Assembly (NCBI GenBank): GCA_021793175.1
Contig: JAJYTH010000007.1
Span: 1 to 62,384 of the forward strand
Source: Actinomycetes bacterium
GTDB lineage: Bacteria; Actinomycetota; Actinomycetes; Mycobacteriales; Pseudonocardiaceae
Length of the DNA stretch: 62,384 nt
Direction: 5' to 3'
In this document: positions 20,537-42,990 of the stretch, one piece after another
How the letters are laid out: each line of letters starts with the position of its first letter
How positions within the stretch are numbered: the stretch's first letter is position 1
Made by a program: the position numbers and the translations under genes
The notes under the pieces: model-generated
What the model was told of the DNA's origin: nothing
Database searches by the model: none
The model's input: the letters and a program-made list of their open reading frames with translations, nothing else

Positions 20537-20659
20537 AGTCGGTAGGACGAGCTCACCGATCCGCCAGGATGGCACGACCCGCACTCCGATTCTTGTCGGT
20601 GGCTACCTCTATCCTCCGTAGCGGGGATGCACCACCGCGCACTGGGGAGGCCGTCACAC

Positions 20660-22952: not shown

Positions 22953-25900
22953 CTCGCGGGACCGGAGGCGATACCTCGGCCAGTTCCGGCTCGTCCGGCT
23001 CCAAGTGGTCAACTGGGGCACGTTCACCGGCTACAAGGACCTCCCGATCGACGAACGCGGCGTGCTGTTCACCGGGCCGTCCGGCTCGGGCAAGTCATCG
23101 CTGATGGATGCCCACTCGGTGGTGTTGCTGCCCACATCCGACCAGCGCTTCAACGCCTCCGCCGATCTGAGCGCACGCGGCGCGAAACAAGCCACCCGAA
23201 GCATCGCCGACTACGTGAGGGGCGCGTGGTCCGAGACCAACGACGAGCACGAACAGTCCCGGGTGCGGTACCTACGTGGTGGCAAGCCCACATGGTCGGC
23301 GATCGGTGCGGCCTACTCCGACGGACTCGGTTCCACCACCACGGCAGTGGTCGTGAAGTGGTTCACCGGGACGGAGAACGACACGTCCTCGCTGAAGACG
23401 CTGTACCGTCTACACGAGGGCCACTTCGACCTCACCGCGTTGGAAGAGTGGGCCAGGCGTGGATTCGACACCCGCTGGCTCAACGCGACACACCCGGCCG
23501 ACACCCCTGACACCCAGAAGTCCTACCTCGATGCCCTCGCCAAACGCATCGGCCTCGGCATCTCGAAAACAGCGCGTTCGCTGCTGGGCAAGGCGAAGGC
23601 GATGAAGAACGTGGGCGATCTCAACTACTTCATCCGGCATGACATGCTGGATGAGCCCGATACGTTCGCGGCGGCACAGAAAATGCTCGACGCGTTCACC
23701 CCGCTCAACGAGGCCTACGAGATCGCGCGCCGTGCGAACGCCCAGGCGAAAGTATTGGCAAACGTTCCCGAGAACTGGGCGATCTATCAGGAATCGCAGC
23801 GCACTCGCGTACTCGCCGAAGCCCTCACGGGAGAACCGATGGAGCGATACCTGCGCGAACGTCACCTGAGGGTCGTCGAAGCGGAGATCGACCGGCTTGA
23901 CCGCGCGATCACTGCAGGCGCCCGGGACCTCGAACAACACGAACATCAGGCGGAGCAAGCCGAAGCCGAATACCTTTCACTGGCCAGGCAGTTCGAAGAC
24001 AGCAACCGGCTGATACGCGAACTCGACGCCGACTTAAGACAACGCCGCTCCGAACTCGCCTTCCGCGAACGCGCACACCAGGACTACAGCGCCTTGGTCG
24101 GCGCGCTCGGCAGGCAATGCCCGGAAGACGAGGCCGGGTTCACCTCTCTCCGCGACAAGCTGGCCGACATCGAAAGGGAAGCGCGGGCGCAGCAGAAGGA
24201 GATCGACGCGCGGAGACGTCCGGCGGCAGCGGCAGCGGAGCAAACACAGCGGCTCCACGACGACAGAGCAGCCGAACTGCAGGCCCTGCGGTCCTCACGG
24301 ACCCTGATTCCCACCACGCAACTGCGCTCCAGGCAGCGCATCGCGGACGGCGCCGGGGTCCCGGTCACCGATCTACCGTATGCGGCGGAGCTGATCGACG
24401 TGATCGACGGTGAACAGCGATGGCGGCCTGCGGCGGAGAAGGTCCTCCGCAACTTCGGTCTGCGGCTGCTGGTTCCCGAACGTCACCACCGTGCCGTGCA
24501 GTCCTTCATCGACACCAACGACATGCGCGGCGTCGTCGAATACAGCATCGTTCCCGCACGATCGCATCGCCCCGCCCCGGCGGATCCGACCACGTTGGCG
24601 GGAAAACTCGACGTCGACACCGATCACCCCTGTGGGGCGTGGCTTCTGAGGCAGCTCACCTCACGGTTCGCCCACGTGTGCGTCGAAAGCGCCGACGAGC
24701 TCGGCAACCACTCCCTCGCGGTCACCGTGCGGGGCACGGTGAAGCGCCCCGGCAACCACTACCGCAAGGATGATCGGCCCGAACTCACCAATCCCGCCTC
24801 CTACATCCTCGGTGCGAACACGGAGGCCAAACTGGCCGCGCTGGAGGCCGAGGTCGCCGAACTCGCCGCCGCAGCACGTCGTGCCGCCGAGTTGGCCGAC
24901 GAGCTGGACGCCCGCTATCTCGCGGTGTCGAAGACGATAGAGGCCGTCACGAAGCTCACCGGGTACCACAGCTGGGCGGAACTCGACCGCTCAAGCGCCT
25001 CGGAAGCCATCCGCCGGCTGGAACAGCGCATCACCGACCTCAAGAACGCCGACACCGACCTCCGCAGCCTGGAGCAGCAGCGGGATGAGGCGAAAAAACA
25101 CTGGCAGGAATGCTCCGACACCTGCTCGACGCTGAGGACCGTGATCGCCGACGACCGGCGTCGCCGAGAGCGCCTCACCGAGGTCCTGGAGCGAGAGCGG
25201 TCCTGCCCACACTCGGTCGATGTCGATACCGACCGCGAATACCTGGACGCCGTGTTCGGCGACGTCGAGGTCGAGCTGACCCCCGACACTCTCCCCCAGG
25301 TACGCAGCGCGTTCCGGAAGGAACTCGAACGACGCCGCGATGCGGCGAATGCCCATCGCGACCTCGCCCATTCGCAACTGAAGACGGCCATCGACCAGTT
25401 CCTGGAACGGTGGGAGTCCTCGGCACCGGACAACAGCGGCGACGTGGACCGTTCCGGAGCGGACTTCGTCGCCCTGTACTCCGACATCACGCAACGACGT
25501 CTCCCCGACGCGATGACCCACTTCGAGCGGATGATCAGCCAGGACATGGTGCCGTCGATCAGCGTGCTCTACCACGCCGTGCAAGCGGCGACCACCGAGA
25601 TCGAACGGCGCATCGCGATGGTCAACTCCGGGCTGCGCCGGGTGGAGTTCAACCCGGGGACCCACCTGCAAATCGCCTACAAGGCCAACCCCTCCCCCGA
25701 TGTCCACGACTTCCGGCGCAGGGTGGACGCCCTGTTGCGGGGCGCGTCCCAAGCACTGCGCGACCCGACGAAGCTGCTCGCCCAGTTCCGCCAGATCCGC
25801 GACCTGATGAAACGTTTCACCGGAACCGGCGCCGAGGACATCAGGTGGCGCGCCAATGTGCTCGACGTCCGCACCGGCTACCAGTTCTATGGGCGTGAAG

Positions 25901-26319
25901 TGGACGCCGAGGGGGTGACCACGACGACGTACCGCAACACCGCGTCCAATTCGGGCGGGGAGCAGGAAAAACTCGTGGCCTTCTGCCTCGCCGCGGCACT
26001 CAGCTACAATCTCGCCGAATCGGGCTCCGACGGCAGGCCGCTGTTCGCACCGCTGATGTTGGACGAAGCGTTCAGCAAGTCCGACGAGACGTTCTCCCAG
26101 CAAGCGCTCGGGGCGTTCGACGAGTTCGGGTTCCAACTGATCATCGCGGCTCCGATCCGTATGTCCGGCATCCTGGAACCCTTCATCGGACAGGCGGTGC
26201 TGGTGGACAAGCGGGTGACCGACGACGGAGCCTTCTCCCACGCCGCGACGGCCACTTTCGGAGAGCTGTCGGCTCGGGGTGGTAATGCATCGTGGAGAAG
26301 CTCCCATGCTCCGGCCTGA
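22945..26319 (+). CDS. jetC: Wadjet system protein JetC (SMC/MukB-like ATPase)
   Basis: This 1124-residue SMC-like ATPase has Walker A GPSGSGKSS at residues 44-52, preceded by the usual VNWGTFTGY strand. Two coiled-coil arms (about 290-420 and 620-840) flank a central hinge-like globular part (about 440-600, LIPTTQLRSRQRIADGAGVP). The signature motif SGGEQEK begins at residue 1003, and Walker B LMLDEAF has Asp1040 and the catalytic Glu1041. It is the DNA-loop-extruding motor. ATG 22945 lies inside the jetB stop (8-bp overlap), and the C-terminus overlaps jetD by 14 bp. The conserved head motifs look fully intact, so the system is predicted active. Confidence 0.93.
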   Translation: MSDSRDRRRYLGQFRLVRLQVVNWGTFTGYKDLPIDERGVLFTGPSGSGKSSLMDAHSVVLLPTSDQRFNASADLSARGAKQATRSIADYVRGAWSETNDEHEQSRVRYLRGGKPTWSAIGAAYSDGLGSTTTAVVVKWFTGTENDTSSLKTLYRLHEGHFDLTALEEWARRGFDTRWLNATHPADTPDTQKSYLDALAKRIGLGISKTARSLLGKAKAMKNVGDLNYFIRHDMLDEPDTFAAAQKMLDAFTPLNEAYEIARRANAQAKVLANVPENWAIYQESQRTRVLAEALTGEPMERYLRERHLRVVEAEIDRLDRAITAGARDLEQHEHQAEQAEAEYLSLARQFEDSNRLIRELDADLRQRRSELAFRERAHQDYSALVGALGRQCPEDEAGFTSLRDKLADIEREARAQQKEIDARRRPAAAAAEQTQRLHDDRAAELQALRSSRTLIPTTQLRSRQRIADGAGVPVTDLPYAAELIDVIDGEQRWRPAAEKVLRNFGLRLLVPERHHRAVQSFIDTNDMRGVVEYSIVPARSHRPAPADPTTLAGKLDVDTDHPCGAWLLRQLTSRFAHVCVESADELGNHSLAVTVRGTVKRPGNHYRKDDRPELTNPASYILGANTEAKLAALEAEVAELAAAARRAAELADELDARYLAVSKTIEAVTKLTGYHSWAELDRSSASEAIRRLEQRITDLKNADTDLRSLEQQRDEAKKHWQECSDTCSTLRTVIADDRRRRERLTEVLERERSCPHSVDVDTDREYLDAVFGDVEVELTPDTLPQVRSAFRKELERRRDAANAHRDLAHSQLKTAIDQFLERWESSAPDNSGDVDRSGADFVALYSDITQRRLPDAMTHFERMISQDMVPSISVLYHAVQAATTEIERRIAMVNSGLRRVEFNPGTHLQIAYKANPSPDVHDFRRRVDALLRGASQALRDPTKLLAQFRQIRDLMKRFTGTGAEDIRWRANVLDVRTGYQFYGREVDAEGVTTTTYRNTASNSGGEQEKLVAFCLAAALSYNLAESGSDGRPLFAPLMLDEAFSKSDETFSQQALGAFDEFGFQLIIAAPIRMSGILEPFIGQAVLVDKRVTDDGAFSHAATATFGELSARGGNASWRSSHAPA

Positions 26320-27487
26320 GGACGTCATCGCCACATTGCGACGCCGGTTCGAAAACGGCTATCCGGACTGGGCGCGTGGCCGAGGCACATGGCCGATACG
26401 CCTCGGCCTGCGTCCCCCGACCACACAGCAACGGGCAGCGGATCCGGTGGCGTGTCACGCCTGGGCCGAGGAATGGCGCGCGTTCCCGGGGCCGGGTGTG
26501 GTCGAATACGTCGCGTTGCGGTTCCCCACCGGCACGCATTCCATGCCCAAGACACTGGTCGTGGACTCTCCCCACGCCGTGGCCACCGCGAACACGACCA
26601 CCGAGGCAACCTGGCGACGGTGCGGACGGCGGCTCACGGCACTGCAACGGGAGTTTCCGCAGGCACGCTTCGACCGCATCATCCGCCGGATCACGGAGCT
26701 TTCCGAGGTCGAGTACGGAAGGCTCGTCGCGACGGTGCGCTGGTTGAGTGCCCATCCCGCATCGGGGATGTTGCTGCGCCAGTTGCCGATCGAGGGCATC
26801 GACACCAAATGGCTTGAACGGCACGCGGGTCTGGTGCTGCCCCTGCTCGGCGCACGTGAGATCGGTGCCGAGGACTCGCGGCGTTTGGGCCTGCACGAGC
26901 GGCTGGGCCTGCGCAGACCACCGGAGTTGGTGCAGGCCGCCGTGCTCGACCCTGTGCTACGTGACCGTGTGGGCGGCATGCGGCACTTCGCCGCCTCGGT
27001 CGACGACTTGAACCGGTGGACTCATCGACCCGATGTCGTGCTGATTTTGGAGAACACCGCGACCGCCTATGCGCTCACCGATGATCGACCTGGCGTGGTG
27101 GTGCTGCACGGCCAGGGATTCAGCGTCGCGCGATATTCCCGTATCGACTGGGTGCACACCGCTTCGAAAGTGTTCTACTGGGGTGACATCGACCTGCCGG
27201 GCCTGTACTTTCTCAACGATCTCCGCGCCGCTGGGGTGAGGGTCGACTCGCTTCTCATGGACGTCGCCACGCTGGAGGAGTTCCGGCATCTCGCTGTCGA
27301 AGGTTCCGCACCGCCCCGAACCGCACTGCCACATCTGACCGATACCGAGCGGCGACTCCACACGCTGCTCACCGACCACGCGGCCACCCACGGCGTCGGA
27401 TTGCTGTTGGAGCAGGAACGCATTCCGTGGCCGCACGCCGATACGGTGCTGCGCTCCCGGATCAGGAACTCGCCGAACGCCACGTGA
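26306..27487 (+). CDS. jetD: Wadjet system nuclease JetD (DUF3322-DUF2220, Toprim-type)
   Basis: This 393-residue protein has an N-terminal DUF3322 region (TLRRRFENGYPDWARG, WRAFPGPGVVEY, LVATVRWLSAHPASGMLLRQLPIEGIDTKWLERH) and a C-terminal DUF2220 Toprim-like fold related to topoisomerase VI subunit A. The metal-binding residues are visible: Glu249 in LILENTATAY, and Asp294 and Asp296 in YWGDIDLPGLYF, with a C-terminal LEQERI. It is the subunit that cleaves DNA after loop extrusion by JetABC. ATG 26306 has GGAG 9 bases upstream and lies within the end of jetC. No other gene is joined to the cassette. Confidence 0.92.
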   Translation: MLRPEDVIATLRRRFENGYPDWARGRGTWPIRLGLRPPTTQQRAADPVACHAWAEEWRAFPGPGVVEYVALRFPTGTHSMPKTLVVDSPHAVATANTTTEATWRRCGRRLTALQREFPQARFDRIIRRITELSEVEYGRLVATVRWLSAHPASGMLLRQLPIEGIDTKWLERHAGLVLPLLGAREIGAEDSRRLGLHERLGLRRPPELVQAAVLDPVLRDRVGGMRHFAASVDDLNRWTHRPDVVLILENTATAYALTDDRPGVVVLHGQGFSVARYSRIDWVHTASKVFYWGDIDLPGLYFLNDLRAAGVRVDSLLMDVATLEEFRHLAVEGSAPPRTALPHLTDTERRLHTLLTDHAATHGVGLLLEQERIPWPHADTVLRSRIRNSPNAT

Positions 27488-28584: not shown

Positions 28585-29469
28585 TCAGCGGGACTTGAGG
28601 TCCAGTATCTCCCGGGCCTCGTCGGGCGTCGCCACCCGCGACCCCAGATTGTGGATCAAGTCGACCGCGCGTGTGACCAGCTGTTCGTTGGTGGCCTTGA
28701 CGCCTTTGGAGAGATAGAGGTTGTCCTCCAGGCCGACTCGGACGTGGCCGCCCAACAGCACCGACTGCGCCACCCACGGCATCTGCATCCTGCCGAGCGC
28801 AAACGCCGCCCACTGCGCCCCTTCGGGAAGCCGGTTGACCATCGCCTGCAGATGCAACGGGTCGGCCGGCGCGCCGTAGGGGATGTCCATGCACAGCTGG
28901 AACAACGGCGGCGGGTCGACGAGCCCTTCTTCGACGAGTTTGCTGGCGAACCACAGCTGCCCGGTGTCGAAGATCTCCATCTCGGGTTTGACGCCGAGTT
29001 CCTGGATCCGTCGCGCGCCCTTACGCAGCATGTCGGGGGTGCTGACGTAGATTTGGTTGCCCTCGCCGAAGTTCAGCGTGCCGCAGTCCAGCGTGCAGAT
29101 GTCGGGGTCCAGCTCCTCGACGTGCGGCAGGCGCTCGTAGGCATTCACCAGGTCGGTGCCCTCGACCGGCTTCAGCGGATCCTCGTCGTCGATCACCAGG
29201 TCGCCGCCCATGCCCGCGGTCAGGTTGAGTACGACGTCGACGTCCGACGCGCGGATGCGCTCCACGGTCTCGCGGTACAGGTTCACGTCACGTGATCCCT
29301 GGCCGGTGTCCGGGTCGCGAACGTGGATGTGCACGACGGCGGCCCCTGCCCGCGCGGCGGCGATCGCCGAGTCGGCGATCTGCTCGGGCGTCACCGGGAC
29401 GTGCTCGCTTTTGCCCACGGTGTCGCCCGCACCGGTGACGGCACACGTGATGATCACGTTCTCGTTCAC
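28585..29469 (-). CDS. Beta-keto acid cleavage enzyme (BKACE, DUF849 family)
   Basis: This 294-residue TIM-barrel enzyme condenses a beta-keto acid with acetyl-CoA to give acetoacetate and a new acyl-CoA. Zinc ligands His47 and His49 lie in VVHIHVRDP; other family blocks are [50 protein letters not shown] and the late [14 protein letters not shown] with the third ligand Glu. The GTG at 29467-29469 has GAGGAG six bases upstream. The gene starts 33 bp after acxC, so it is the fourth gene of the acetone carboxylase operon. In carnitine catabolism the family cleaves dehydrocarnitine; here the context points to beta-keto acids made by ketone carboxylation. Confidence 0.92.
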
Positions 29470-29502
29470 GGTAACTCCTCTGTCGAAACGAAAGCCCGGT
29501 GC

Positions 29503-30000
29503 CTACGCCTGCTCGGGCAGTGGGCGCTTGAGCCAATCCCGGTAGAACGCCTCCAAATCGGGCAGGAAGTCGAACACGACCGGGAACCCCGGTGGAGCGG
29601 CCTCGACCTCCAACAACGTGTAGCAGCCGGGGCACATGAACTCGCGGAGCTCCATCCATTCCGGATCGCAGGCATAACGGCCCGGGTAGATCTCCTCGAT
29701 GCTCTCCCGGTCACCGCGAACCCGTACCAGGGCGTTCAGCTTCCAGTTCTCTCGGTAGTCGCCGAACTCGTGCCCGCAGTCGCACTTGACGACCCGCCCG
29801 TGCGCGGCCTGCACGATGTAGAGGTGTTCCCCGATGGGAAGCAGGATCTGCTCGGACCACGGGACGCGTTCCTGCAGGATCTGCAGGTAGGTCTCGAACC
29901 GGTCGTCGTCCTTATACGAACTCATGATCGACTTGGTGGCCGGCCAGGGCAGTGTCCCGTCGATCAGATCCTGGATCGTTTTCTTGTCGTAGCTTGTCAC
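29503..30000 (-). CDS. acxC: Acetone carboxylase gamma subunit
   Basis: This 165-residue protein belongs to the Acetone_carb_G family. It starts TSYDKKTIQDLIDGTLPW, then RFETYLQILQERVPW, a zinc-knuckle-like CDCGHEFGDYRENWKLNALVRVRGD and FMCPGCYTLLEVEAAPPG, and ends FLPDLEAFYRDWL. This family is specific to acetone carboxylases and so identifies the operon better than the two hydantoinase-like subunits do. The GTG at 29998-30000 is chosen to match the family N-terminus; its ribosome site is weak. The product forms an alpha2beta2gamma2 complex with the two upstream gene products. Confidence 0.93.
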   Translation of the reverse strand: MTSYDKKTIQDLIDGTLPWPATKSIMSSYKDDDRFETYLQILQERVPWSEQILLPIGEHLYIVQAAHGRVVKCDCGHEFGDYRENWKLNALVRVRGDRESIEEIYPGRYACDPEWMELREFMCPGCYTLLEVEAAPPGFPVVFDFLPDLEAFYRDWLKRPLPEQA

Positions 30001-30088
30001 CTGCTGGTCCAATCTGTGGGAAGGAACAGGGAGCCGGGGTGGTGTGCGGGAGTCGGCGTGCTCGCCGCACACCACCCGGATCAGCGGT

Positions 30089-32299
30089 TCAGCGCCCCTT
30101 CGGCGGTGTGAACTCGAAGTCGGAAGGCAAGTTCCAGAATTCACGGAATTCCTGGGTGAACCGGGCCGAGTTGGCCATGCTGTCGCGGTACATCTCCTGG
30201 ACCTCGGGAGCGAAGTCCTGGGCGAGTACCCGCTCGCGGTCCTGTTCGACCCACTGCCGCACAGGCACCGCGTGTGTCCTGCGGTCTCGCTGGATCCGCT
30301 CGCGCCTGGCGATGGTGGCTTCCCGGTCGACGCGGCAGCCGTCGGAGTCCGACTCCACCACGACGCCGTACACGGCCTTGGCCGAGTCGGCGGTGACATA
30401 GCCGTTGGCGACATCACGAGCCACCGAATCCGGGTCACGCTCCAGCGGGTCACCGTAGCCGCCGCCACCGTTGTAGGAGTGGGCGAACAGGTCGCCTTCA
30501 CGCAACGGTTCGGCGAGGTAGGGACCTTCGATGACCTTGACATCGCCGCCCGCGTACTTCTCGATGTCCGTCTCGTAGGGGTCCGTGCCGAGCGAGTGCG
30601 GCAGCCGGACGCTCTTGCTCGTCAGCTCCTTCAGGTCGGTGTCGTGTGCCGCGTAGTGCAGCTGCACGGTCGGGGCGGGGTAGCCACCGCACATTCCGGC
30701 GTTGTCGAAAACGCGGCTGGAGTGTTCCGAGGTGGCGATGATCAGCTGCGGGGTCTTGTTCACCAGCCACAGCGACTCGAATCCCGCACCGCCACGGTAC
30801 TTACCGAAGCCACCGGAGTTGGCGCTGATGGTGCGACCGAGGTAGAGCATGGGCATGTCCTGTTCCCAGATCTCCATGTTGCCCATGTCGGATTCCGGGT
30901 TCCAGCCCACGTAGGCGGTGTCCAGCCCGTCCTTGATACCCATCGCACCACTTCCGGCCGCGGCACATTCGAACAGCGCGATACCGAACCGGGTGCCGTA
31001 CTGGCTCTGCCCGCCCATCTCGATCATCGGACTGTTCACCTGTCCGACGAACACTTCCTCCTTGTATCCGCGGCCGAGGAAACCTCGGCTCAGGAGTCGC
31101 TGGAAGACCCCGAAGGCGGGCAGAAGCAGCGCCCACGACGTAGCGGTGGCCAAGGACTCGTCCGTCGGATTCGTCCAGGTCCCCTCCGGCAGGTTCATGT
31201 CCGTAGCGAGCCACGCACCGTCGTTGACCTTGCCGTCGTAGTTCATGCTCTGCGTCAACGTGACGAAGAAGCCACCGTCCATTCCGGCCGGTGTGCAGTT
31301 CATCGAGTGGTAGCCCGAGGAGTTGGTGCCGTCGAAGTCCAGGTGGATCTTCCCTTCGGCGGAGATCTCCATCTCCATCGGGATCGCGTACAGCCAGTTC
31401 TTGTTGCCCATGGGCAACACACCCTGCTTGCCCTCGGTCACGTGCCCGAAGAACGTGTGCCCCCGATAGCGTCCCGGAACGGTCAACTGGCGCACACGTG
31501 CGAGCTGGGCCCGCCGTCCCTCCTCGATGAACTCCTTGGTCGCCCTCTTGTAGTAGTCCAGCCCGACCTGGTCGATCAGCTCCAGAAGCTGGTCTCGGAC
31601 CTCGAGGCACGCCGCGACCTTGGCCTTCTCGTCGAGCACCCAGTAGATGGGCATGCGCAGGTTGCGTTCGAGGCGGATGAGGTAGTCACGACGCAGCTCG
31701 TCGTTCTCACCGACCTTCTCGGCGCAGACCATCAACCCCTCGGTGTAGCGCTCCTGAGCCAGCGCGACGTCGCCGCCGGGAGTGATCCCACCGACCTCCA
31801 GTTCGTGGCACACGGCGGCGGCCCAGCCGATCAACTCGTCGTCGTAGAAGATCGGGATCACGTCGATGACGTCGGGGGCTTGCACCGTGCCGATGAAGGC
31901 GTCGTTGTTGGCGAAGATGTCCCCCGGGCGGATTCCCGGCGCCTTCTCGTAGTCGTTCTGGATCATCCACTTGATGAACCGGCTCGCAGTGTGGACGTGC
32001 ACCATGATGCCGGTGGACAAGGCGATCGCGTCGCCTTCCGGCGTGTAGAGCGCGACCACGCTCTCGCCCACCTCGCGGACACCGGGCGATGCGGAGATCC
32101 GTTTGGCCATCTCGCGAGCGGAGACGACCATCGACCGGAGCTTGATGTGCAAGCTCTCGTACTTCAGCGGGTCCTCGTCACGAAGATCCAATTTGTCCAG
32201 TCCGGCATAGTGGCCGGTCTCCTGGAACAGCCGGTCGCTGGCGAGAAGCTGGTCTTTCAGTGGGGTCGCGGTGGTCTCTGTCATCTGACTAGCGGACAT
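30089..32299 (-). CDS. acxB: Acetone carboxylase alpha subunit (hydantoinase B-like)
   Basis: This 736-residue protein is of the HyuB/AcxB type: REMAKRISASPGVREVGE, LSTGIMVHVHTASRF, GDIFANNDAFIGTVQAPDV, IHLDFDGTNSSGYHSMNCTPAG, and a C-terminal GGGGYGDPLERDPDSVARDVANGYV. Together with AcxA and AcxC it carboxylates acetone with bicarbonate and ATP to acetoacetate. The ATG at 32297-32299 has AAGGA about 9 bases upstream. It lies 33 bp after acxA and 88 bp before acxC. The length is near that of characterised alpha subunits (about 775). Confidence 0.93.
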   Translation of the reverse strand: MSASQMTETTATPLKDQLLASDRLFQETGHYAGLDKLDLRDEDPLKYESLHIKLRSMVVSAREMAKRISASPGVREVGESVVALYTPEGDAIALSTGIMVHVHTASRFIKWMIQNDYEKAPGIRPGDIFANNDAFIGTVQAPDVIDVIPIFYDDELIGWAAAVCHELEVGGITPGGDVALAQERYTEGLMVCAEKVGENDELRRDYLIRLERNLRMPIYWVLDEKAKVAACLEVRDQLLELIDQVGLDYYKRATKEFIEEGRRAQLARVRQLTVPGRYRGHTFFGHVTEGKQGVLPMGNKNWLYAIPMEMEISAEGKIHLDFDGTNSSGYHSMNCTPAGMDGGFFVTLTQSMNYDGKVNDGAWLATDMNLPEGTWTNPTDESLATATSWALLLPAFGVFQRLLSRGFLGRGYKEEVFVGQVNSPMIEMGGQSQYGTRFGIALFECAAAGSGAMGIKDGLDTAYVGWNPESDMGNMEIWEQDMPMLYLGRTISANSGGFGKYRGGAGFESLWLVNKTPQLIIATSEHSSRVFDNAGMCGGYPAPTVQLHYAAHDTDLKELTSKSVRLPHSLGTDPYETDIEKYAGGDVKVIEGPYLAEPLREGDLFAHSYNGGGGYGDPLERDPDSVARDVANGYVTADSAKAVYGVVVESDSDGCRVDREATIARRERIQRDRRTHAVPVRQWVEQDRERVLAQDFAPEVQEMYRDSMANSARFTQEFREFWNLPSDFEFTPPKGR

Positions 32300-32332
32300 G
32301 GAGCCATCCTTGTTCTGTCGAAAAGTCGGTAC

Positions 32333-34471
32333 TCACGCGTGCTCGTAGTGCAGGATCGTCCACTCGTCGACCCACACCCGGTCGCCGGCGGGAATGACGA
32401 GAGTGGTCGCCGGATGCTCGATGACGGCGGGACCCTCGATCTCGTTCCCGGGGCGCAACAGGTCCATCTCCCACAGACGCGCCTCGTGCCATTCGCGGTT
32501 GTAGTACATGTTGCGGGTGCCCTTGAACGCCTCGCGGGACGCCTTCTTGCCTTCCAACGGCTGCCGCACCAACTTCGGCTTGATCTTGTCCACTTTGGCT
32601 ATCAAGCCCAGCTCGGTGACGCTGTGTCCCGCTTCGCGGTAGTGCGCGACAGCGCGGTTGATGGAGGTGTAGAGCCGCTCGAACTCGCCGACGAGCATGT
32701 CCAGACCGGAGTCCGTGGACAGCTGCTGCAGAGGGATCGGCACCTCCACGTCCTCCAGCTGCCCGGTGTAACGCATCATGGCGAACATCTCCAGCTGCAC
32801 GTCGGCGGGGTCATGGCCTTCCTCGGCCATTTCCCGACGCGCGGCGTCGGCGAGCGCTGCCCACACCGCGTCGATCTCCTCGATCACCTGCTTGCGGTGT
32901 TCGGCCGAGGCCTCCGGCGGGACTGTCAGCTGCACCGAGCGGCTGTAGCGGCGCAGGTAGTCGGCCGTGGTGCAGCCGAACGCCGAGAAGGCCGCCGCGA
33001 AGGGGAACGTGAGAATGTTCTTGAAGCCCAGTCCCCTGCTGTACTCGGCCATGTGCAGCGGGCCCGAGCCACCGTAGGCCATCAGCGAGTACTCGGACGG
33101 GTCGACGGCGCGGGCGGAGACCATCTGCCGGATGGCTTCCTTGGCGTCCATCTCCAGCAGGTTGGCCATGCCCTCAGCGGCTTCGTAGACGTCGATGTCG
33201 AGCGGGTCGGCCACCTTCTCCTGGAGCACGCGCTTGGCGCCCTCGATGTCGAGCTTCACCTTCCCGCCGAGGAAGTAGTCGGGGTTGAGCCGACCCATGA
33301 TCGCGTCGCAGTCGCAGACCGTCGGCTCGGTGCCCCCCATCCCGAACGCCACCGGCCCCGGCGACGATCCCGCGCTTTCCGGGCCGAGGCTGATCTTCTT
33401 GGTGAGCGGGTCGACCTTGATGATGGTTCCCGCACCGGCCCCGATGGTGTCCATCGCGATGGTCGGCAGGTTCAGCTTGAACCGCGCGAGGGTGGGCTCG
33501 TTCTCGATCGGCACATTGCCGCGTGTGATGGCGCTGATGTCGAAACTGGTGCCACCCATGTCGGTGACGACCACCGAGTCCGCGCCGATCACGTCACCGA
33601 TGTACTTGGCACCGAGGATCCCGCCGACGGGGCCGGAGATCATCGTTTCGTGCAGGCGCGGGTACCGCACGCCCGCCAGCCCTCCGTAGGACAGGACGGT
33701 CTGCACTCCGTAGCGGAAACCCTGCCCTTGCGCGGCTTCTTCCACACCGACGAGTTGCTCACGACTTTTGTCGGCAGCGTAGGCCTCGATGATGACGCTG
33801 TTCAATCGGGACTGCTCACGCACCACGGGACGTACCGCGGATGAGAGGTAAACGGGAATCTCGACACCGCGGTCGGCCAGCACCTTCTGCGCCACGTCCG
33901 CGATCTGGCGTTCGTGCTTGTCGTCCACATAGGAGAAGATGCAGCACACGCACAGAGCCTCGACATCCTGTTCGAGAAGCTCTTCGACCGCCTGCACAAC
34001 CTCGTGCTCATAAACCGGGATGGTTTCGTTACCGAATTGGTCGATACGTTCGGTGATCCCGCGAATACGGTTGCGAGGAACGAGCGGCTCGGGGTGAGCG
34101 TGCGTCACAGCGTGCAGCCGGTCCGGGTACGAGTACTCCGCCCAGGCCTGCAACCCCCGGCCCATCAGTACGGCGTCCTCCATGCCGCGGGTCACCAGGA
34201 GCCCTACGCGGCGGCCAGTACGGGACAGCAGGGTGTTGAGCATTCCCGTCCCGGAGTACAGCACCACCGACAACTTCTCAAAAGTGTCCTCTGAGGACAG
34301 ACCCCACTGCCGAGCCGCGTCGGCTGCGGACTCCAGAAAACCCTCCGACTCGTTACGCGGAGTCGTCGAGGCCTTGCCCACAGCAAAGCGTCCGTGCTCA
34401 TCGACGAGGAGCGTGTCGGTCATCGTTCCGCCCGCGTCGATGCCGAGTACGAGAGGTTGAAACTCGTTCAC
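32333..34471 (-). CDS. acxA: Acetone carboxylase beta subunit (hydantoinase A-like)
   Basis: This 712-residue ATP-using subunit is of the HyuA/AcxA type: LGIDAGGTMTDTLLVDEHG at the N-terminus, CCIFSYVDDKHE, VVTDMGGTSFDISAI near residue 300, IGAGAGTIIKVDPLTKKISLGPESAGSSPGP and AFGCTTADYLRRYSRSV. It activates acetone as an enol phosphate for carboxylation. The GTG at 34469-34471 with GGAAGG 7 bases upstream is chosen over a start 10 codons upstream. First gene of acxABC-BKACE. No sigma-54 activator of the AcxR type is adjacent; the divergent NCS1 gene shares its upstream region. Confidence 0.94.
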   Translation of the reverse strand: MNEFQPLVLGIDAGGTMTDTLLVDEHGRFAVGKASTTPRNESEGFLESAADAARQWGLSSEDTFEKLSVVLYSGTGMLNTLLSRTGRRVGLLVTRGMEDAVLMGRGLQAWAEYSYPDRLHAVTHAHPEPLVPRNRIRGITERIDQFGNETIPVYEHEVVQAVEELLEQDVEALCVCCIFSYVDDKHERQIADVAQKVLADRGVEIPVYLSSAVRPVVREQSRLNSVIIEAYAADKSREQLVGVEEAAQGQGFRYGVQTVLSYGGLAGVRYPRLHETMISGPVGGILGAKYIGDVIGADSVVVTDMGGTSFDISAITRGNVPIENEPTLARFKLNLPTIAMDTIGAGAGTIIKVDPLTKKISLGPESAGSSPGPVAFGMGGTEPTVCDCDAIMGRLNPDYFLGGKVKLDIEGAKRVLQEKVADPLDIDVYEAAEGMANLLEMDAKEAIRQMVSARAVDPSEYSLMAYGGSGPLHMAEYSRGLGFKNILTFPFAAAFSAFGCTTADYLRRYSRSVQLTVPPEASAEHRKQVIEEIDAVWAALADAARREMAEEGHDPADVQLEMFAMMRYTGQLEDVEVPIPLQQLSTDSGLDMLVGEFERLYTSINRAVAHYREAGHSVTELGLIAKVDKIKPKLVRQPLEGKKASREAFKGTRNMYYNREWHEARLWEMDLLRPGNEIEGPAVIEHPATTLVIPAGDRVWVDEWTILHYEHA

Positions 34472-34794: not shown

Positions 34795-34947
34795 ATGCTT
34801 GTGAGTCAAGACGAGACAGTGTTGGCCGAACTCTCCGCGCTCGATACCGCACCCGTCGGCAAGGAGTTCAACCGAGCCGACTACGTACTTCTCCTTGTCC
34901 TCGGTGTCGTGATCCCTGCGGTTCTCTTGGCTTGGGGTTGGTTGTGA
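34795..34947 (+). CDS. Tiny single-span membrane protein upstream of the NCS1 transporter
   Basis: This 50-residue protein has an acidic N-terminal part (SQDETVLAELSALDTAPVGKEFNRADY) and one membrane helix (VLLLVLGVVIPAVLLAWGWL) at the C-terminus. AAGGA lies 4 bases before ATG 34795 and 10 bases before the in-frame GTG 34801, either of which may be used. Its TGA overlaps the GTG start of the transporter (GTGA), so the two are translationally coupled. This arrangement resembles small subunits of two-part solute:sodium symporters, but I do not recognise the family. Confidence 0.65.
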   Translation: MLVSQDETVLAELSALDTAPVGKEFNRADYVLLLVLGVVIPAVLLAWGWL

Positions 34948-36386
34948 CTTCTTCACAAACCAGAATTAAGATTCCGAAATCCAGCCTGCCGCTGCCGTTG
35001 AAGGAGCGGAACTGGAACGGGTTCGTCCTCGGCGCGGTCTGTACGACTGCGGGGATCGCCACCTGGTCCTTCGTCGTCGGTGGAACGTCCGCCAGCTACC
35101 TCGACGCCAAGATGGGTGTGGCGGCGATGTTGGCGGGAGGACTGATCGGACAGTTCCTTATCAGCCTCGCCACGATTCCCCCGAGCACGAAGTTCGGCAT
35201 CGAGACGGTGATCTCCACCAAACCGCAGCTCGGCTCGCGCGGCAGTTATCTCGCGCTGTTCATGCAGTACTGCACCGCACTCGGCTGGAACTGCGTACTC
35301 ATGCTCTTCTTCGGCCGGTCGGCTGCCTCCATTTTGGAGATTCTCGGGCTCATCAGCGCAGAAGCCAAAGCCGGATGGGCTACCGGAATCTCCGCCGCCG
35401 GTGTGGTATTAGTCTGGCTGATGGTGAGCCGCGGCGCGAACTCACTACAGAAAGTGGGTCCCGTCGTCGCTATCTCGATCTCGTTGATGGCCGTGTGGCT
35501 CCTGGTGCTGCTACTCCAGGACTACGGCATCTCCGAGATCTCGGCGGCAGAACCCCTCGCTCCGACGTCCGACGAGCTACTCAACTACACCTCGGTCGTC
35601 GAGTTGCTCATCGTGAGCACCTGGGGCTGGTGGTCCTACATGGGCGGAATGGTGCGCATGGTCGACAGCGCCCGCAAAGCCATACTTCCGTCCATGCTCG
35701 GCCTGGGTGTCGCCTGGGTCCTGGTCGCCGCTATCAGTCTGTATTCCACTTTGGTCACAGGAGAACCGGATCCGGCAGTGTGGGCTCCCATGATCGCCGG
35801 CGAGGTGGGTGGCATCGCCGTACTGCTCTTCATCGCGTTCGCCAACTTGGGCTCGACGCTGGTGGGAGCGTTCGTCGCATCGTTGGGTGTCTCTCAGATT
35901 CCCAAGGTGGGTGGCACACTGTCCTGGCGGGTCATCAGCGGGCTGGTGCTGTTGCCCATGCTGCTGGTCAGCCTGTTCTTCGCGGAGCCGTTCTCCAACA
36001 ACGTCGACCAGTTCATGGCCTTCATCGGCCTGATGATCGCGCCGATGGTGGGCATCCAGATCGCCGACTGGCATGTGTTGCGGCGCGGCAAAACCCTTCG
36101 GGTTTCAGGGCTGTACCAGCAGAGTCAGGCGTCGTGCTATTGGTATCTCGGTGGCTTCAACCCCGCCGGGATCATCGCTTTGGCGCTGGGCAGCGTCACC
36201 TACCAGTTGCTGCTGGACCCGGTCACCTACGAGCCCCGATCGTCCCTGTTCAAGTACGTGACCGCGTCGCTGCCCGCGCTGGTCGTAGCGGCGGTGGTGT
36301 ACTCGCTGCTGTCGATGCTGTGGCGAGGAAGACTGAACCCTGCGAGAGCGGACACCCAGCTGGACGAGACTCCGCGGTCCGGCTGA
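34944..36386 (+). CDS. NCS1-family permease (cytosine/purine/allantoin type)
   Basis: This 480-residue protein has 11-12 membrane helices and the NCS1 opening NWNGFVLGAVCTTAGIATWSFVVGG, then AMLAGGLIGQFLISLATIPPSTKFGIETV, RGSYLALFMQYCTALGWNC and TWGWWSYMGGMVRMVDSARKA. It imports a small polar molecule with protons or sodium; usual substrates are nucleobases, hydantoins or allantoin. GTG 34944 overlaps the stop of the small membrane protein. It is divergent from the acxABC operon and convergent with the Lrp regulator. The cargo could be linked to the acx pathway or not; sequence cannot tell. Confidence 0.87.
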   Translation: MTSSQTRIKIPKSSLPLPLKERNWNGFVLGAVCTTAGIATWSFVVGGTSASYLDAKMGVAAMLAGGLIGQFLISLATIPPSTKFGIETVISTKPQLGSRGSYLALFMQYCTALGWNCVLMLFFGRSAASILEILGLISAEAKAGWATGISAAGVVLVWLMVSRGANSLQKVGPVVAISISLMAVWLLVLLLQDYGISEISAAEPLAPTSDELLNYTSVVELLIVSTWGWWSYMGGMVRMVDSARKAILPSMLGLGVAWVLVAAISLYSTLVTGEPDPAVWAPMIAGEVGGIAVLLFIAFANLGSTLVGAFVASLGVSQIPKVGGTLSWRVISGLVLLPMLLVSLFFAEPFSNNVDQFMAFIGLMIAPMVGIQIADWHVLRRGKTLRVSGLYQQSQASCYWYLGGFNPAGIIALALGSVTYQLLLDPVTYEPRSSLFKYVTASLPALVVAAVVYSLLSMLWRGRLNPARADTQLDETPRSG

Positions 36387-36405: not shown

Positions 36406-36442
36406 GTGGGCCTGCGGGCTGGGATCAAGCCTGCAGGCCCAC
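36406..36442. terminator. Bidirectional hairpin overlapping the lrp 3' end
   Basis: GTGGGCCTGC (36406-36415) pairs perfectly with GCAGGCCCAC (36433-36442). The stem lies partly inside the last codons of the Lrp gene. Confidence 0.65.
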
Positions 36443-36952
36443 CGTCCCGCCGCCGTTGAACGTCGGATAGACGTAGGAGACCTTGTGCATCTTGATTTCC
36501 TGGAACGTCTCGGCGTCGGTGATTCCGTCGACGGCCGGCAGCCGATCGGTCAGGATCTGCCACAAGTGGTCGTGATCACGGCACACCAGCTGAACGTAGA
36601 GATCCGCACGCCCGGTGCAGGAGGAAATATAGGTGATCTCTTCCCAGGGGGTCAGTTCGTCGATGACCGACTGCCGCTTGCCCACCTGCACTTTGATCAG
36701 GATGAACACCATCACGCTGTAGCCCAATTTAAATGGGTCGGCGATAGCGGCGATGGTCAGAATGCCCTCGCGTTGAAGACGGTTCGCGCGGCTACGCACC
36801 GTGCCTTCGGACACACCCAGCTCGCGGGCGATCTCCCGATACGAGGCGCGGCCGTTGAGCTGTAACATATTCAGGATCTTGTTATCCATCGCGTCCAATA
36901 GCGGCCGGGACGCCTGTAAACGACTCGCACTGGTCCGTCTCACAAACGGCAT
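36425..36952 (-). CDS. Lrp/AsnC-family transcriptional regulator
   Basis: This 175-residue protein has an N-terminal helix-turn-helix (DNKILNMLQLNGRASYREIARELGVSEGTVRSRANRLQREGIL, about 24-66) and a C-terminal RAM/AsnC ligand domain (VMVFILIKVQVG, ITYISSCTGRADLYVQLVCRD, TFQEIKMHKVSYVY). Such proteins sense amino or related small acids and form octamers. The ATG at 36950-36952 is chosen; a short GGTAGG precedes it. It neighbours the NCS1 permease and the thioesterase gene, its likeliest targets. Confidence 0.9.
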   Translation of the reverse strand: MPFVRRTSASRLQASRPLLDAMDNKILNMLQLNGRASYREIARELGVSEGTVRSRANRLQREGILTIAAIADPFKLGYSVMVFILIKVQVGKRQSVIDELTPWEEITYISSCTGRADLYVQLVCRDHDHLWQILTDRLPAVDGITDAETFQEIKMHKVSYVYPTFNGGGTVGLQA

Positions 36953-37023
36953 TTTACCTACCACCCTCGCTTGGGCGCGTCGGGGGACCCAGGCTCGTTC
37001 ATCGGAAGAGGTGCCTGCATTCC

Positions 37024-37461
37024 ATGCCTGAACTGCTCCGTTATCACGAGAAAGTCCGCGACGAATGGATCGACTACAACGGCCATCTCAGCGAGCCGTT
37101 CTACGTCATGGTTTTCGGATTCGCCACGACGAACTTGATGGACGAAGTAGGTCTCGACGAGCGGTATCGCGCCGAAACGAACGCTTCGCTGTACACCGTC
37201 GAAGCGCACGTGCGCTATTTGAAGGAAGTCGGCCCGAACGCCGACCTCCTGGTCACCACTTCGGTCGTGTCCATCGGCACGAAGAAACTGCGGCTCTGCC
37301 ACGAGATGTACGTCGATGACGAACTGGTCGCCACCGAAGAACTTCTCGCGTTACACGTGAAAGACGGGGCCTCGTATCCGTTTCCCGAGGAGGTCGCGAA
37401 GCGGCTGCAGCAGTACGTGACTGCCGCACCCGACTACGCCGGGCGCTCCATCAGCGGCTGA
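37024..37461 (+). CDS. Hotdog-fold acyl-CoA thioesterase (carnitine-pathway type)
   Basis: This 145-residue protein has a 4HBT-like hotdog fold: VRDEWIDYNGHLSEPFYVMVFGFATTNLMDEVGLDERYRAETN, then LYTVEAHVRYLKEVGPNADL and KLRLCHEMYVDDELVATEELLALHV. The DYNGHL motif places the usual Asp and His at the active site. It most resembles thioesterases found with carnitine dehydrogenase and BKACE, where betainyl-CoA is hydrolysed. No carnitine dehydrogenase is present here, so the acyl-CoA substrate is open. It is divergent from the Lrp gene (71 bp between starts). Confidence 0.82.
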   Translation: MPELLRYHEKVRDEWIDYNGHLSEPFYVMVFGFATTNLMDEVGLDERYRAETNASLYTVEAHVRYLKEVGPNADLLVTTSVVSIGTKKLRLCHEMYVDDELVATEELLALHVKDGASYPFPEEVAKRLQQYVTAAPDYAGRSISG

Positions 37462-39575: not shown

Positions 39576-42098
39576 ATGAACGCAGCCAACCGAAGAATGA
39601 AACGTTCCGCTGTTGCGTTACTCGCAACGGCCACCATGGTCCTGACTCTGGGAATGACCGGCACCACGTCCGCGACAGCCGATCAGCCGCTCGACTGGAC
39701 ATATCAGGTGACCGGCCTCGACGAACCGGTCGACATCATCGTGGACGAGTGGGGCGTACCGCACATCTACGCCGGTGAACATTACGACACCTTCTTCGCG
39801 CAGGGGTTCAACGCCGCCCGCGACCGACTGTGGCAGATCGACCTGTGGCGTAAGCGAGGACTCGGTCGGCTCTCCGAGGCACTCGGTCCGGAGTACGTCG
39901 AACAGGACCGCGCGAACCGCATGTTCTCCTACCGGGGAGACATGGAACAGGAATGGTCTTCCTACGGTGACGACGCGAAACATATCGCGGAGTCCTACAC
40001 CTCCGGCATCAACGCCTACGTCGAGCTCGCTCGGGACAACCGGGATCTCCTGCCGTGGGAATTCGAGTTCCTGGGATACGAGCCGGACCTGTGGAAACCC
40101 GAGGACGTTGTACGGCTACGGACCCATGCGATCGCCGGAAACCTCACCAGTGAGGTGGAGCGCGCGTACTTCGTAAAGGACTTCGGCTTTCAGTACGAGG
40201 ACATTCGCAGCCCACTCGACGCGGGATGGCGGACCGAAGTACCGGAAGGGCTCGATCTGAGTGTGCTCCCGGACACCCCCGACGACCTGCTACGGGTCTA
40301 CGACTTGGCGACCGGCCCGGTCGAGTTCGACGCGGACACGCTGTCCGTCGAGTTTGGGGAGGCCGAGATCGACGGACGTCCGGTCACCGCTGCGACAGTC
40401 CACGAGGCAACCGAGAACGCGGCTGGTCGACTGCCCGACGACACGGAGGACGACCGAAAGGAAGGGTCCAACACGTTCGTGGTCTCACCGGGGCGGACCG
40501 CCACCGAAGGGCCGCTGATCGCCAGCGATCCGCACCGAGACCAGGGCGTCCCTTCGCTGCGGTACATCACACACCTCAACGGACCGGGCATCGATGTGAT
40601 CGGTGCGGGAGAGCCGGGCCTGCCCGGGGTCTCGCTCGGCCACAACGAGAGCATCGCCTTCGGACTGACGATCTACGACATCGACCAAGAGGACCTCTAC
40701 GTCTACGAGACCAACCCGAAGAACCCGAACGAGTACCGCTACCGGGGTCGCTGGGTACCGATGGACGTGGAGACCGCTGAGATCCCGGTACGGGGCAGTG
40801 CTTCCGAAACGGTCGAGATGAAGTTCACCGAACACGGCCCCGTCATCTACGAGGACGAGGAGAACAACGTCGCATTCGGTGTCCGAACGGTATGGAGCGA
40901 ACCGGGTACCAGTGCCTATTTCGGAAGCGTGGAATACATGCGCGCCCAGGACTGGGACGGGTTCCTCGGGGCGATGGACCGTTGGGGCACCCCCGGGGAG
41001 AATCAACAGTACGCCGACGCCGAGGGAAACATCGGTTGGAAGCCGGCCGGTCGAACGCCGGTTCGCCCCAACTGGGACGGTCTGCTGCCCGTTCCCGGAG
41101 ACGGTAGCTACGAGTGGGACGGCTTCTACGACATGGACGAACTGCCGGTCAGCTACAACCCGGAACGAGGCTGGTCACAGACCAACAACGAGACGCGGCT
41201 GTTCGACGAGCACGAAACCGGGCCGCTCCCGGAGTACGTCGAGCGCAAGATCGGTTTCGAGGCAGCGGAACCTTGGCGTGCGATACGCACCAGAGAGGTC
41301 CTGGCCGAGATGGACGACGCGACCATCGACAGCATGCTCGCTTTGCAGACCGACCACCTGTCCGTCCCGGGAAGGCTGATCACGGCGGAGCTCGACGACA
41401 TCACCTCTGCCGACCCGGCCGTCGACCGTGCGCTTGAACTGCTGCGGGACTGGGACCATGTGATGGACCTCGATTCGGCGGGCGCCGCCCTGTTCGACGT
41501 CTGGACCGACATCCACGGAGCCCCCGGCACCGGAGACGGCTTCCTCGGCCGAGCCCTGTTGGAAGCCGCGGTCGAGGACCCGGCCGCGGTCGAACGGATC
41601 GGTGAGCCGGACCAAAGAGCGTTGGTCGACATGATCGAGAATCCGGAGGACTGGTTCACCGGCGACGCCATCTCGGTGCGCGACGAGGCGATCACGTCGA
41701 GTCTCGCGGCGGCGGTCGCGAAGTTGACCGCGGACCAGGGCGCGGACCCGCAAGGGTGGCGCTACGGCTTCTACAACAAACAGGAACTCATCCACCCGCT
41801 CTCCGAACTGGTGGATCCGCACACTCGTCGGGCTATCGACATCGAAGCCGAGGAACGGGAACCGGTGAACAACACGGTCGGAGACCTCGGCGCTTCCTGG
41901 CGGTACATCGCCGAGCCGGGTGACTGGGATACCGCGGTGGCGATGAACAACCCGGGCCAGTCGGGTGATCCGGAAAGCCCCTTCTACGAGAACCTGTTCG
42001 TTCCGTGGACGAAGGGTGAGACGTTCCCGTTGCTGTTCGACAGGGCGGACGTGATCGAGAACGCCGCGTTGAGCATCCGTCTCGAACCGGCCGGCTGA
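39576..42098 (+). CDS. Secreted penicillin acylase family Ntn-hydrolase
   Basis: This 840-residue precursor starts with a signal peptide (MKRSAVALLATATMVLTLGM, cleavage near SATA). An alpha-chain follows (VDIIVDEWGVPHIYAGEHYDTFFAQGFNAARDRLWQIDLWRKRGLGRLSEALG), then a linker and the Ntn nucleophile Ser298 in RKEGSNTFVVSPGRT; autocleavage at Gly297-Ser298 would free the beta-chain. Later blocks SDPHRDQGVPSLRYITHLNG, GVSLGHNESIAFGLT and TPGENQQYADAEGNIGW are typical. It hydrolyses amide bonds of acylated compounds (penicillin, homoserine lactones or acyl peptides); the substrate is unknown. ATG 39576 is given; ATG 39597 is an alternative that shortens the n-region. Confidence 0.92.
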   Translation: MNAANRRMKRSAVALLATATMVLTLGMTGTTSATADQPLDWTYQVTGLDEPVDIIVDEWGVPHIYAGEHYDTFFAQGFNAARDRLWQIDLWRKRGLGRLSEALGPEYVEQDRANRMFSYRGDMEQEWSSYGDDAKHIAESYTSGINAYVELARDNRDLLPWEFEFLGYEPDLWKPEDVVRLRTHAIAGNLTSEVERAYFVKDFGFQYEDIRSPLDAGWRTEVPEGLDLSVLPDTPDDLLRVYDLATGPVEFDADTLSVEFGEAEIDGRPVTAATVHEATENAAGRLPDDTEDDRKEGSNTFVVSPGRTATEGPLIASDPHRDQGVPSLRYITHLNGPGIDVIGAGEPGLPGVSLGHNESIAFGLTIYDIDQEDLYVYETNPKNPNEYRYRGRWVPMDVETAEIPVRGSASETVEMKFTEHGPVIYEDEENNVAFGVRTVWSEPGTSAYFGSVEYMRAQDWDGFLGAMDRWGTPGENQQYADAEGNIGWKPAGRTPVRPNWDGLLPVPGDGSYEWDGFYDMDELPVSYNPERGWSQTNNETRLFDEHETGPLPEYVERKIGFEAAEPWRAIRTREVLAEMDDATIDSMLALQTDHLSVPGRLITAELDDITSADPAVDRALELLRDWDHVMDLDSAGAALFDVWTDIHGAPGTGDGFLGRALLEAAVEDPAAVERIGEPDQRALVDMIENPEDWFTGDAISVRDEAITSSLAAAVAKLTADQGADPQGWRYGFYNKQELIHPLSELVDPHTRRAIDIEAEEREPVNNTVGDLGASWRYIAEPGDWDTAVAMNNPGQSGDPESPFYENLFVPWTKGETFPLLFDRADVIENAALSIRLEPAG

Positions 42099-42258: not shown

Positions 42259-42321
42259 TCACCACAGTCGAAGTATGATTCGAGATTTCCGCACCCGTCC
42301 GTGACCCGAAAGCGAGATGGC

Positions 42322-42990
42322 GTGTACAGCCAACAGATTCGAGGAGTGAACCACACATTTCCCACCCTGATCGAAGTGCTGGCGAAGGCCTCGCCTCCAC
42401 GGTCGGGTGATGAACTCGCCGGGTGTGCCGCGGAATCGGATCGCGAGCGTGCTGCCGCGCAATGGGTGCTCGCCGACATCCCGTTGACCGATTTCCTAAA
42501 CGACGTCCCGATCCCCTACGAAGAGGACGAGATCACCCGACCGATCATCGACGGTCACGATGCGGCGGCGTTCGAGCCCGTGTCACACCTGACCGTCGGA
42601 GGGTTGCGGGACTGGCTGCTCGACACCGCGGCACGCGACGACGGAGACACGGAACTGTCGGCACTCGCACCCGGCCTGACACCGGAGATGGTGGCCGCGG
42701 TCTCCAAGCTGATGCGCAACCAAGACCTCATCGCAGTCTCCCACGCCGTCGCCCACACGTCGGCTTTCCGCACCACCATCGGCCTGCCCGGCCGACTGAG
42801 CACCCGGCTGCAACCCAACCACCCGACCGACGACCCACGCGGTGTCGCCGCCGCCGTCCTCGACGGTCTGCTCTTGGGCTGCGGTGATGCCGTCATCGGC
42901 GTCAACCCGGTCAGTGACTCCCCCCCCCGACACACGGCCGACCTACTGCACCTACTCGACGAGATCCGTGAGCGGTACCGGATCCCGACG
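42322..42990 (+). pseudogene. eutB: Ethanolamine ammonia-lyase large subunit, N-terminal half only
   Basis: From GTG 42322 the product reads as EutB: YSQQIRGVNHTFPTLIEVLAKASPPRSGDELAGCAAESDRERAAAQ, ADIPLTDFLNDVPIPYEEDEITRPIID, SKLMRNQDLIAVS, FRTTIGLPGRLSTRLQPNHPTDD, LLGCGDAVIGVNPVSDS and LLDEIRERYRIPT. There the homology stops, at about residue 223 of a normal 450-460. The lost half includes much of the barrel and the cobalamin-facing residues. The sequence passes directly into eutC in another frame; the old frame runs on as nonsense to 43203. The enzyme cannot be functional. Confidence 0.85.

Follow-up and report, generated by a model that had tools for sequence, protein, structure and literature searches.

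Organization of the locus

We analysed a 62,384-nucleotide stretch of DNA from an actinomycete of the family Pseudonocardiaceae (assembly GCA_021793175.1, contig JAJYTH010000007.1, positions 1 to 62,384), hereafter the window, which carries an operon for relatives of the three acetone carboxylase subunits (acxA, acxB and acxC) and a beta-keto acid cleavage enzyme (BKACE). We propose, with a probability of roughly 0.6, that this cluster encodes an ATP-dependent trimethylaminoacetone carboxylase route that would lead via 3-dehydrocarnitine to glycine betaine. The genes that carry the argument are the following:

32333 to 34471, minus strand: acxA-like gene with a chosen GTG start; Pfam Hydantoinase_A (6e-82), Hydant_A_N and Hydant_A_C
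30089 to 32299, minus strand: acxB-like gene; Pfam Hydantoinase_B (1e-86)
29503 to 30000, minus strand: acxC-like gene for the small subunit; Acetone_carb_G, PF08882 (1e-42)
28585 to 29469, minus strand: BKACE gene with a GTG start; PF05853 (4e-103)
37024 to 37461, plus strand: hot-dog thioesterase gene; closest in NCBIfam to the C-terminal domain of PRK07531

The operon, with the BKACE gene 33 bp behind acxC, had been recognized in the first-pass annotation and is confirmed here, all four genes lying on the minus strand and each being matched by Pfam, so that the alpha, beta and gamma carboxylase subunits are encoded together. The gap between acxA and acxB is likewise 33 bp. The GTG start of acxC is our choice, and its open frame extends further. 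The thioesterase gene sits 2.5 kb beyond acxA. The acxA-like subunit, a member of the hydantoinase A family, is predicted to perform the ATP-dependent activation of a ketone and bicarbonate, and the acxB-like subunit, of the hydantoinase B family, to hold the carboxylation site. Since a BKACE would be useless on acetoacetate, the carboxylase should yield a different beta-keto acid, an argument already made in the first-pass annotation and supported by the results below.

A separate carboxylase clade with an altered metal site

The solved structures closest to the acxB-like subunit are those of acetone carboxylase (5m45 and 5svb, about 560 bits; 561 for 5m45), compared with 191 bits for an acetophenone carboxylase subunit in the PDB search. 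In NCBIfam, the matches of the acx proteins are acetophenone carboxylase and caprolactamase, all far under the curated cut-offs. A plasmid search identified a much closer AcxB group, at 67% identity, in Sinorhizobium and Shinella. An alignment of the window AcxB with three proteins of this group was then compared with 84,980 species, each represented by one genome, which yielded 98 loci. We retained the top 80, in all of which AcxB has 64-84% identity to the window protein over the best segment. These loci come from Saccharopolyspora, Brevibacterium, Lentibacillus, Oceanobacillus, Natribacillus, many Mesorhizobium, other Alphaproteobacteria, and metagenome-assembled genomes named Gammaproteobacteria or Proteobacteria. 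Together with three plasmid loci, they make up the 83 relatives used throughout (84 alignment rows with the window), which are not independent because many are from Mesorhizobium. An order-wide search at E 1e-100 found no other member in 397 genomes besides the source genome. In public records, the large subunits of the clade are annotated as hydantoinase/oxoprolinase family proteins or 5-oxoprolinase, and the small subunit as acetone carboxylase gamma. The acxA-like protein is 68-84% identical to its counterparts in seven of the relatives' loci (L040-L046), and four cysteines of acxC (77, 79, 127 and 130, numbered from position 30012) are conserved in all 83 relatives.

As controls, we used 13 acetone-carboxylase-type loci (10 plasmid and three genome loci), which were picked, not drawn at random, from the matches with 38-41% identity to the window AcxB. 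In a tree of 27 clade rows (window included), these 13 controls and six outgroup rows, from which the Xanthobacter sequence is absent, the clade and the acetone-type set are separate, with support of 100/99 and 100/100, although some outgroup branches are very long; the window AcxB does not group with the acetone-type alpha subunits. The label "acetone carboxylase" given to the operon is the weak point of the first-pass annotation.

The two sets also differ at the metal site. According to excerpts of PMC5543143, the manganese of the acetone carboxylase alpha subunit is bound by His150, Asp153 and His175, and also by Glu89 when AMP is bound. Alignment to the solved structure gives Q140, D143, H165 and E79 as the window equivalents, so that the ligand set of acetone carboxylase is incomplete in the window AcxB, with glutamine in place of His150. 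All 84 clade rows have glutamine at position 140, and all 13 controls have histidine. D143 and H165 are conserved in all 97 rows, and E79 in all 13 controls and in 83 of the 84 clade rows, the remaining row having a gap. Q140 is one of 148 positions that are conserved inside each set but differ between them.

Such a replacement would also suit an enzyme that acts on another charged ketone or on a cyclic amide of a tertiary or quaternary amine, or one that is a hydrolase like other members of the hydantoinase family; the superfamily does include hydrolases, and caprolactamase and N-methylhydantoinase are among the matches. We consider this improbable, given that a gamma subunit of the carboxylase type is encoded in 83 of 83 relatives' loci and that the BKACE and thioesterase point to 3-dehydrocarnitine (see below).

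The same acx locus of Sinorhizobium meliloti lies on a plasmid named pSymA in one record (L035) and pSymB in another (L038). A plasmid of the haloarchaeon Natronorubrum (L225) encodes two alpha subunits of the hydantoinase B/acetone carboxylase type, and behind one of them lie genes for a gamma subunit and a CoA ligase.

Gene neighbourhoods of the relatives

The flanks of the relatives' acx loci were fetched up to 12 kb, less at contig ends, and those of most controls up to 8 kb; the thresholds used to call genes in them were set by us. A binding protein or permease of the choline/betaine type, or a BCCT transporter, is encoded near acx in 45 of the 83 relatives and in none of the 13 controls. 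Inclusion of NCS1-like genes and genes resembling trimethylamine N-oxide permeases raises the number among relatives from 45 to 48, the controls remaining at 0/13. With both sets limited to 8 kb, the choline/betaine-type counts are 44/83 and 0/13. Examples of these proteins pass curated cut-offs: a choline binding protein matches TIGR03414 at 481.9 bits (cut-off 379), a choXWV permease scores 364.4 bits (cut-off 363), and proV ATPase and BCCT examples also pass. The binding proteins from two loci (L049 and L043) fall below TIGR03414 but pass Pfam OpuAC.

A recurrent short-chain dehydrogenase/reductase (SDR) is found in 74 of the relatives' loci and in none of the controls (78 versus one when a match to any of three SDR queries is counted), and a LuxR-type regulator in 66/83 versus 0/13. 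The opposite holds for sigma-54 activators, which are encoded in 11 of the 13 control loci, two of them weak matches at about 25% identity, but in only one of the 83 relatives; positions 20001-45000 of the window contain none. Among annotated acetone-type plasmid regions, nine of ten have a sigma-54 regulator gene near acxA, the archaeal one being the exception, and some also hold an alcohol dehydrogenase or CoA transferase. A true acetone carboxylase was accordingly rejected for the window operon because of its metal ligands, its clade and the absence of a sigma-54 regulator.

Two further genes lie between acxA and the thioesterase gene in the window:

34938 to 36386, plus strand: divergent permease of the cytosine/purine (NCS1-like) family; PF02133 (1e-14), below NCBIfam cut-offs
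36425 to 36964, minus strand: Lrp/AsnC-type regulator; PF13404 and PF01037

The start of the permease gene is uncertain, as its open frame begins at 34710. The permease is predicted to import the carboxylase substrate. Relatives of it are encoded divergently from acxA in a Brevibacterium locus (L042, 53% identity) and near acx in another locus (L046, 23%). The protein cluster of the Lrp/AsnC-type regulator is also represented beside acx in three relatives (L040, L041 and L042).

One Mesorhizobium acxABC has nearby, at L108:15488-21398, a module encoding a Rieske oxygenase and an SDR, together with a BKACE-like protein that is only distantly related (32%), a protein resembling carnitine 3-dehydrogenase (CDH) and, as judged by eye, a flavin reductase. 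The pair of Rieske oxygenase and SDR recurs near acx in L109, L111 and L119.

BKACE and thioesterase of the carnitine type

The window BKACE is 69-80% identical to nine actinobacterial BKACEs whose genes adjoin carnitine dehydrogenase (L151-L153, L196-L201). In a tree built by a quick method, it falls inside the CDH-linked clade of 38 rows (support of 98 in the Shimodaira-Hasegawa-like approximate likelihood ratio test, SH-aLRT) and on its actinobacterial branch (98). The PF05853 domain is present with His47, His49, Glu248 and Arg227, whose roles in the family we assume. Seven residues of catalytic motifs, G15, D128, C129, T169, P197, A200 and F223, which we take to line the pocket, are constant in the window protein and in 22 of 22 CDH-linked BKACEs. 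Among eight BKACE paralogs, a single one (L143) shares any of them, namely D128, T169 and F223, so that G15, C129, P197 and A200 separate the 22 CDH-linked proteins and the window protein from all eight. The window BKACE is therefore predicted, from its sequence and placement, to convert 3-dehydrocarnitine and acetyl-CoA to betainyl-CoA and acetoacetate.

The thioesterase matches the C-terminal domain of PRK07531 at 1.6e-28 and 99.7 bits, far under the whole-protein cut-off, as expected for a single domain. A CDH-linked Sinorhizobium protein passes that carnitine 3-dehydrogenase cut-off (936.6 bits versus 592), and the Sinorhizobium dehydrogenase SM2011_c01638 both oxidizes carnitine and forms glycine betaine from betainyl-CoA, according to excerpts of PMC12482172, which cites Bazire et al. 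2019. The window thioesterase is 53-71% identical overall to those in nine actinobacterial operons encoding BKACE, CDH and thioesterase, with 61-71% identity to the carnitine-operon thioesterases of six congeners or family members and 59-63% identity to their counterparts in two Saccharopolyspora, and is predicted to be a betainyl-CoA thioesterase. No CDH match was found in the window; the CDH of the genome is encoded on contig C148 and is broken.

Such a BKACE accompanies the carboxylase in other genomes as well. In 20 genomes chosen for breadth from among the 80 kept loci, 20 of 20 encode a full-length BKACE 57-75% identical to that of the window. The background frequency is 73 of 215 genomes (10/60 relatives of the source genome, at >480 bits; 25/77 relatives of Oceanobacillus G065; and 38/78 relatives of Brevibacterium G063, one match being partial), which gives a Fisher p of 2e-9 without correction for kinship, for a sample in which 11 of the 20 genomes are Alphaproteobacteria and a background that includes none of that group. 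Carnitine dehydrogenase adjoins the BKACE in 17 of 20 fetched regions, from 19 of the genomes and the source genome (exceptions L158, L163 and L165), the thioesterase is present in 13 of the 20, and the arrangement BKACE-CDH-thioesterase recurs in all six additional regions, which come from congeners and other members of the family. Co-occurrence of carboxylase and BKACE, which the first-pass annotation had called for, is thus strong in the genomes sampled, whereas their adjacency proved rare (one of 83 relatives' loci). In one of the exceptions, a large oxidoreductase is encoded beside the carnitine-type BKACE (L163:5249-7684, minus strand); by eye it resembles dimethylglycine or sarcosine dehydrogenases and would fit glycine betaine as a product.

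These results bear on two readings with a neutral ketone as substrate. The first-pass annotation had proposed that 3-oxoacids are formed by carboxylation of butanone or higher methyl ketones and that the BKACE would split them to acyl-CoA and acetoacetate. The operon structure and the relationship to acetone carboxylase agree with this, and the BKACE family accepts several beta-keto acids. On the other side are the carnitine clade of the BKACE, the carnitine-type thioesterase, the SDRs, the lack of an acetone-type regulator and the choline/betaine transporters, which argue against butanone because a neutral volatile ketone would need no transporter. Butanone is probably the wrong substrate, and we regard this reading as very unlikely. 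Just as unlikely is the scavenging of acetone, in which acetoacetate released by the BKACE would partly decay to acetone and be recovered by an ordinary acetone carboxylase AcxABC. Acetoacetate is a BKACE product, and the enzyme is related to acetone carboxylase, but it belongs to a separate clade with an altered metal ligand, choline-type transporters and SDRs are encoded nearby, and a BKACE of this kind was detected at E 1e-60 in none of three genomes of the background sets with an acetone-type AcxB (G438, G504 and G515).

Reciprocal decay and separate recruitment

The cluster can be compared with its syntenic site in a congener (G004), between a gene for a CysZ-like protein (84% identity) and one for penicillin acylase (84%). 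At this site, BKACE, acxC and the thioesterase are left only as broken pieces, the acxC fragment directly abutting the thioesterase fragment, and no match was found in the syntenic region to acxA, acxB, the permease or the Lrp gene, whereas the separate carnitine operon of this congener is intact. The source genome shows the reverse: the acx-linked copies are intact and the carnitine operon on contig C148 is broken (L150, G000:C148:17000-36900, at 9562-11351), frameshifts dividing BKACE into three pieces and CDH into two, and the thioesterase that follows in congeners has no match there.

In Lentibacillus (L043, Bacillota), another BKACE is encoded 5.8 kb upstream of acxA. It groups with carnitine BKACEs of Bacillaceae, apart from that of the window, which suggests separate recruitment to acx. 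The decayed acxC and BKACE at the syntenic site in the same genus, together with this second BKACE near acx, argue that the order of acx and BKACE genes is not due to chance.

Proposed route from trimethylaminoacetone to glycine betaine

What was computed here is which genes are present, their clades and neighbours, and how they co-occur and decay reciprocally; the reaction and substrate of every enzyme are predictions. In the proposed route, the acxABC-like carboxylase would use ATP to convert a methyl ketone that carries a quaternary ammonium group, in all likelihood trimethylaminoacetone, to 3-dehydrocarnitine; from this product and acetyl-CoA, the BKACE of the operon would form betainyl-CoA and acetoacetate; and glycine betaine would be released by the thioesterase encoded 2.5 kb away. 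The ketone is suggested by the chemistry: carboxylation of its methyl group would give a beta-keto acid, and as the next enzyme appears to be a 3-dehydrocarnitine BKACE, the ketone would be trimethylaminoacetone. In the relatives, choline/betaine-type transporters would import the substrate, and the SDR could oxidize the alcohol, beta-methylcholine, to the ketone; both fit trimethylaminoacetone. The quaternary-ammonium class of the substrate is likely right, and we are less sure of the exact ketone. Beta-methylcholine is a putative natural substrate, for which the part of the literature surveyed contained no support. According to excerpts of PMC12482172, Citrobacter cells grown on carnitine contain more trimethylaminoacetone, and extracts of Pseudomonas are cited there as turning this ketone further into glycine betaine.

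Several observations weigh against this route. The altered metal ligand could signal a different reaction; the window permease belongs to a family of nucleobase transporters; and 35 of the 83 loci, mostly of Mesorhizobium, have no recognized transporter of the kinds counted above. In the fetched flanks, a carnitine-type BKACE is missing from 82 of the 83 relatives (the exception is L043), a match to the window thioesterase from all of them, and a CDH-like gene from all except L108. An SDR of the Saccharopolyspora type elsewhere in the source genome was considered and is unsupported: no close match was found in this genome, which is 91% complete (best 34%). The frameshifts in the carnitine operon on C148 could be assembly errors; in the window, a relative of EutB (42301-43724, plus strand) likewise looks split, by a frameshift or an assembly error. 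Finally, the idea that genomes with carboxylase and BKACE would lack carnitine dehydrogenase failed, since a full-length CDH (376-541 bits) is encoded in all 20 carboxylase genomes. Carnitine use alone can therefore explain the BKACE in these genomes, and entry of the ketone as a substrate is indistinguishable from its salvage.

Salvage would be another role for the same reaction: 3-dehydrocarnitine loses CO2 to form trimethylaminoacetone, and the carboxylase might only re-carboxylate what leaks from the carnitine pathway, with no dedicated growth substrate. Besides the universal presence of CDH in the sample, the higher abundance of trimethylaminoacetone in Citrobacter mentioned above is in line with it. 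The source genome, however, has a broken carnitine dehydrogenase and an intact acx operon, and the transporter and SDR genes beside acx in many relatives would be superfluous for a repair enzyme. We consider salvage as the sole role rather unlikely and favour trimethylaminoacetone carboxylation as an entry into betaine synthesis.

Our search of the literature, mostly open-access, found, in the part that it covered, no paper that connects this carboxylase with the chemistry of carnitine, betaine or BKACE, and none linking acetone carboxylase with BKACE; a paper on SAR11 genomes describes a CDH-BKACE region, and its excerpts do not mention acetone carboxylase. The cluster would thus be an undescribed route to glycine betaine. 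If correct, the proposal would assign a function and a class of substrates to a clade now annotated as hydantoinase/oxoprolinase or 5-oxoprolinase, some genes of which lie on a large symbiotic plasmid in Sinorhizobium meliloti. Betaine metabolism would gain a carbon-fixing entry and trimethylaminoacetone a means of being recovered, and ketone carboxylases would prove able to function with an altered ligand at their metal site.

Other genes in the window

Two 3-oxoacid-type CoA-transferase genes are possible users of acetoacetate:

18216 to 19647, minus strand: CoA-transferase pair, with subunit A at 18901-19647 and the other subunit within 18216-19073

The pair matches TIGR02429 above the cut-off and PF01144; its link to the operon is putative.

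A Wadjet-type defence cluster occupies 20627-27487 (plus strand), where JetA, JetC and JetD match PADLOC and JetB has no PADLOC match in the single frame scanned; no JetC or JetD match was found in the syntenic region of the congener G004. A penicillin amidase family protein (39576-42098, plus strand, 1e-183) is syntenic in G004 at 84% identity, and an acetamidase/formamidase family protein is encoded at 13108-14313 (plus strand). In the relative of EutB, the large subunit of ethanolamine ammonia-lyase, the frame 42301-43203 matches the first half, to which the scan was limited; G004 has a single 475-residue frame with the same start.

Comparison with known systems

Acetophenone carboxylase and caprolactamase belong to the same hydantoinase A/B superfamily as the window proteins but match them with low scores. 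Closer is the acetone carboxylase AcxABC of Xanthobacter (5m45, 5svb), which has the same three subunits in the same order and with which the clade shares Glu89, Asp153 and His175. The clade differs from it in having glutamine for His150, in the lack of a sigma-54 activator in 82 of 83 loci, and in the SDRs (most loci) and choline/betaine transporters (about half) encoded alongside. The catabolic operon for carnitine, consisting of BKACE, carnitine 3-dehydrogenase and betainyl-CoA thioesterase, resembles the window cluster in the types of its BKACE and thioesterase and differs from it in encoding carnitine dehydrogenase. Of the three enzymes of that operon, the cluster thus appears to hold two, with a carboxylase in the place of the dehydrogenase.

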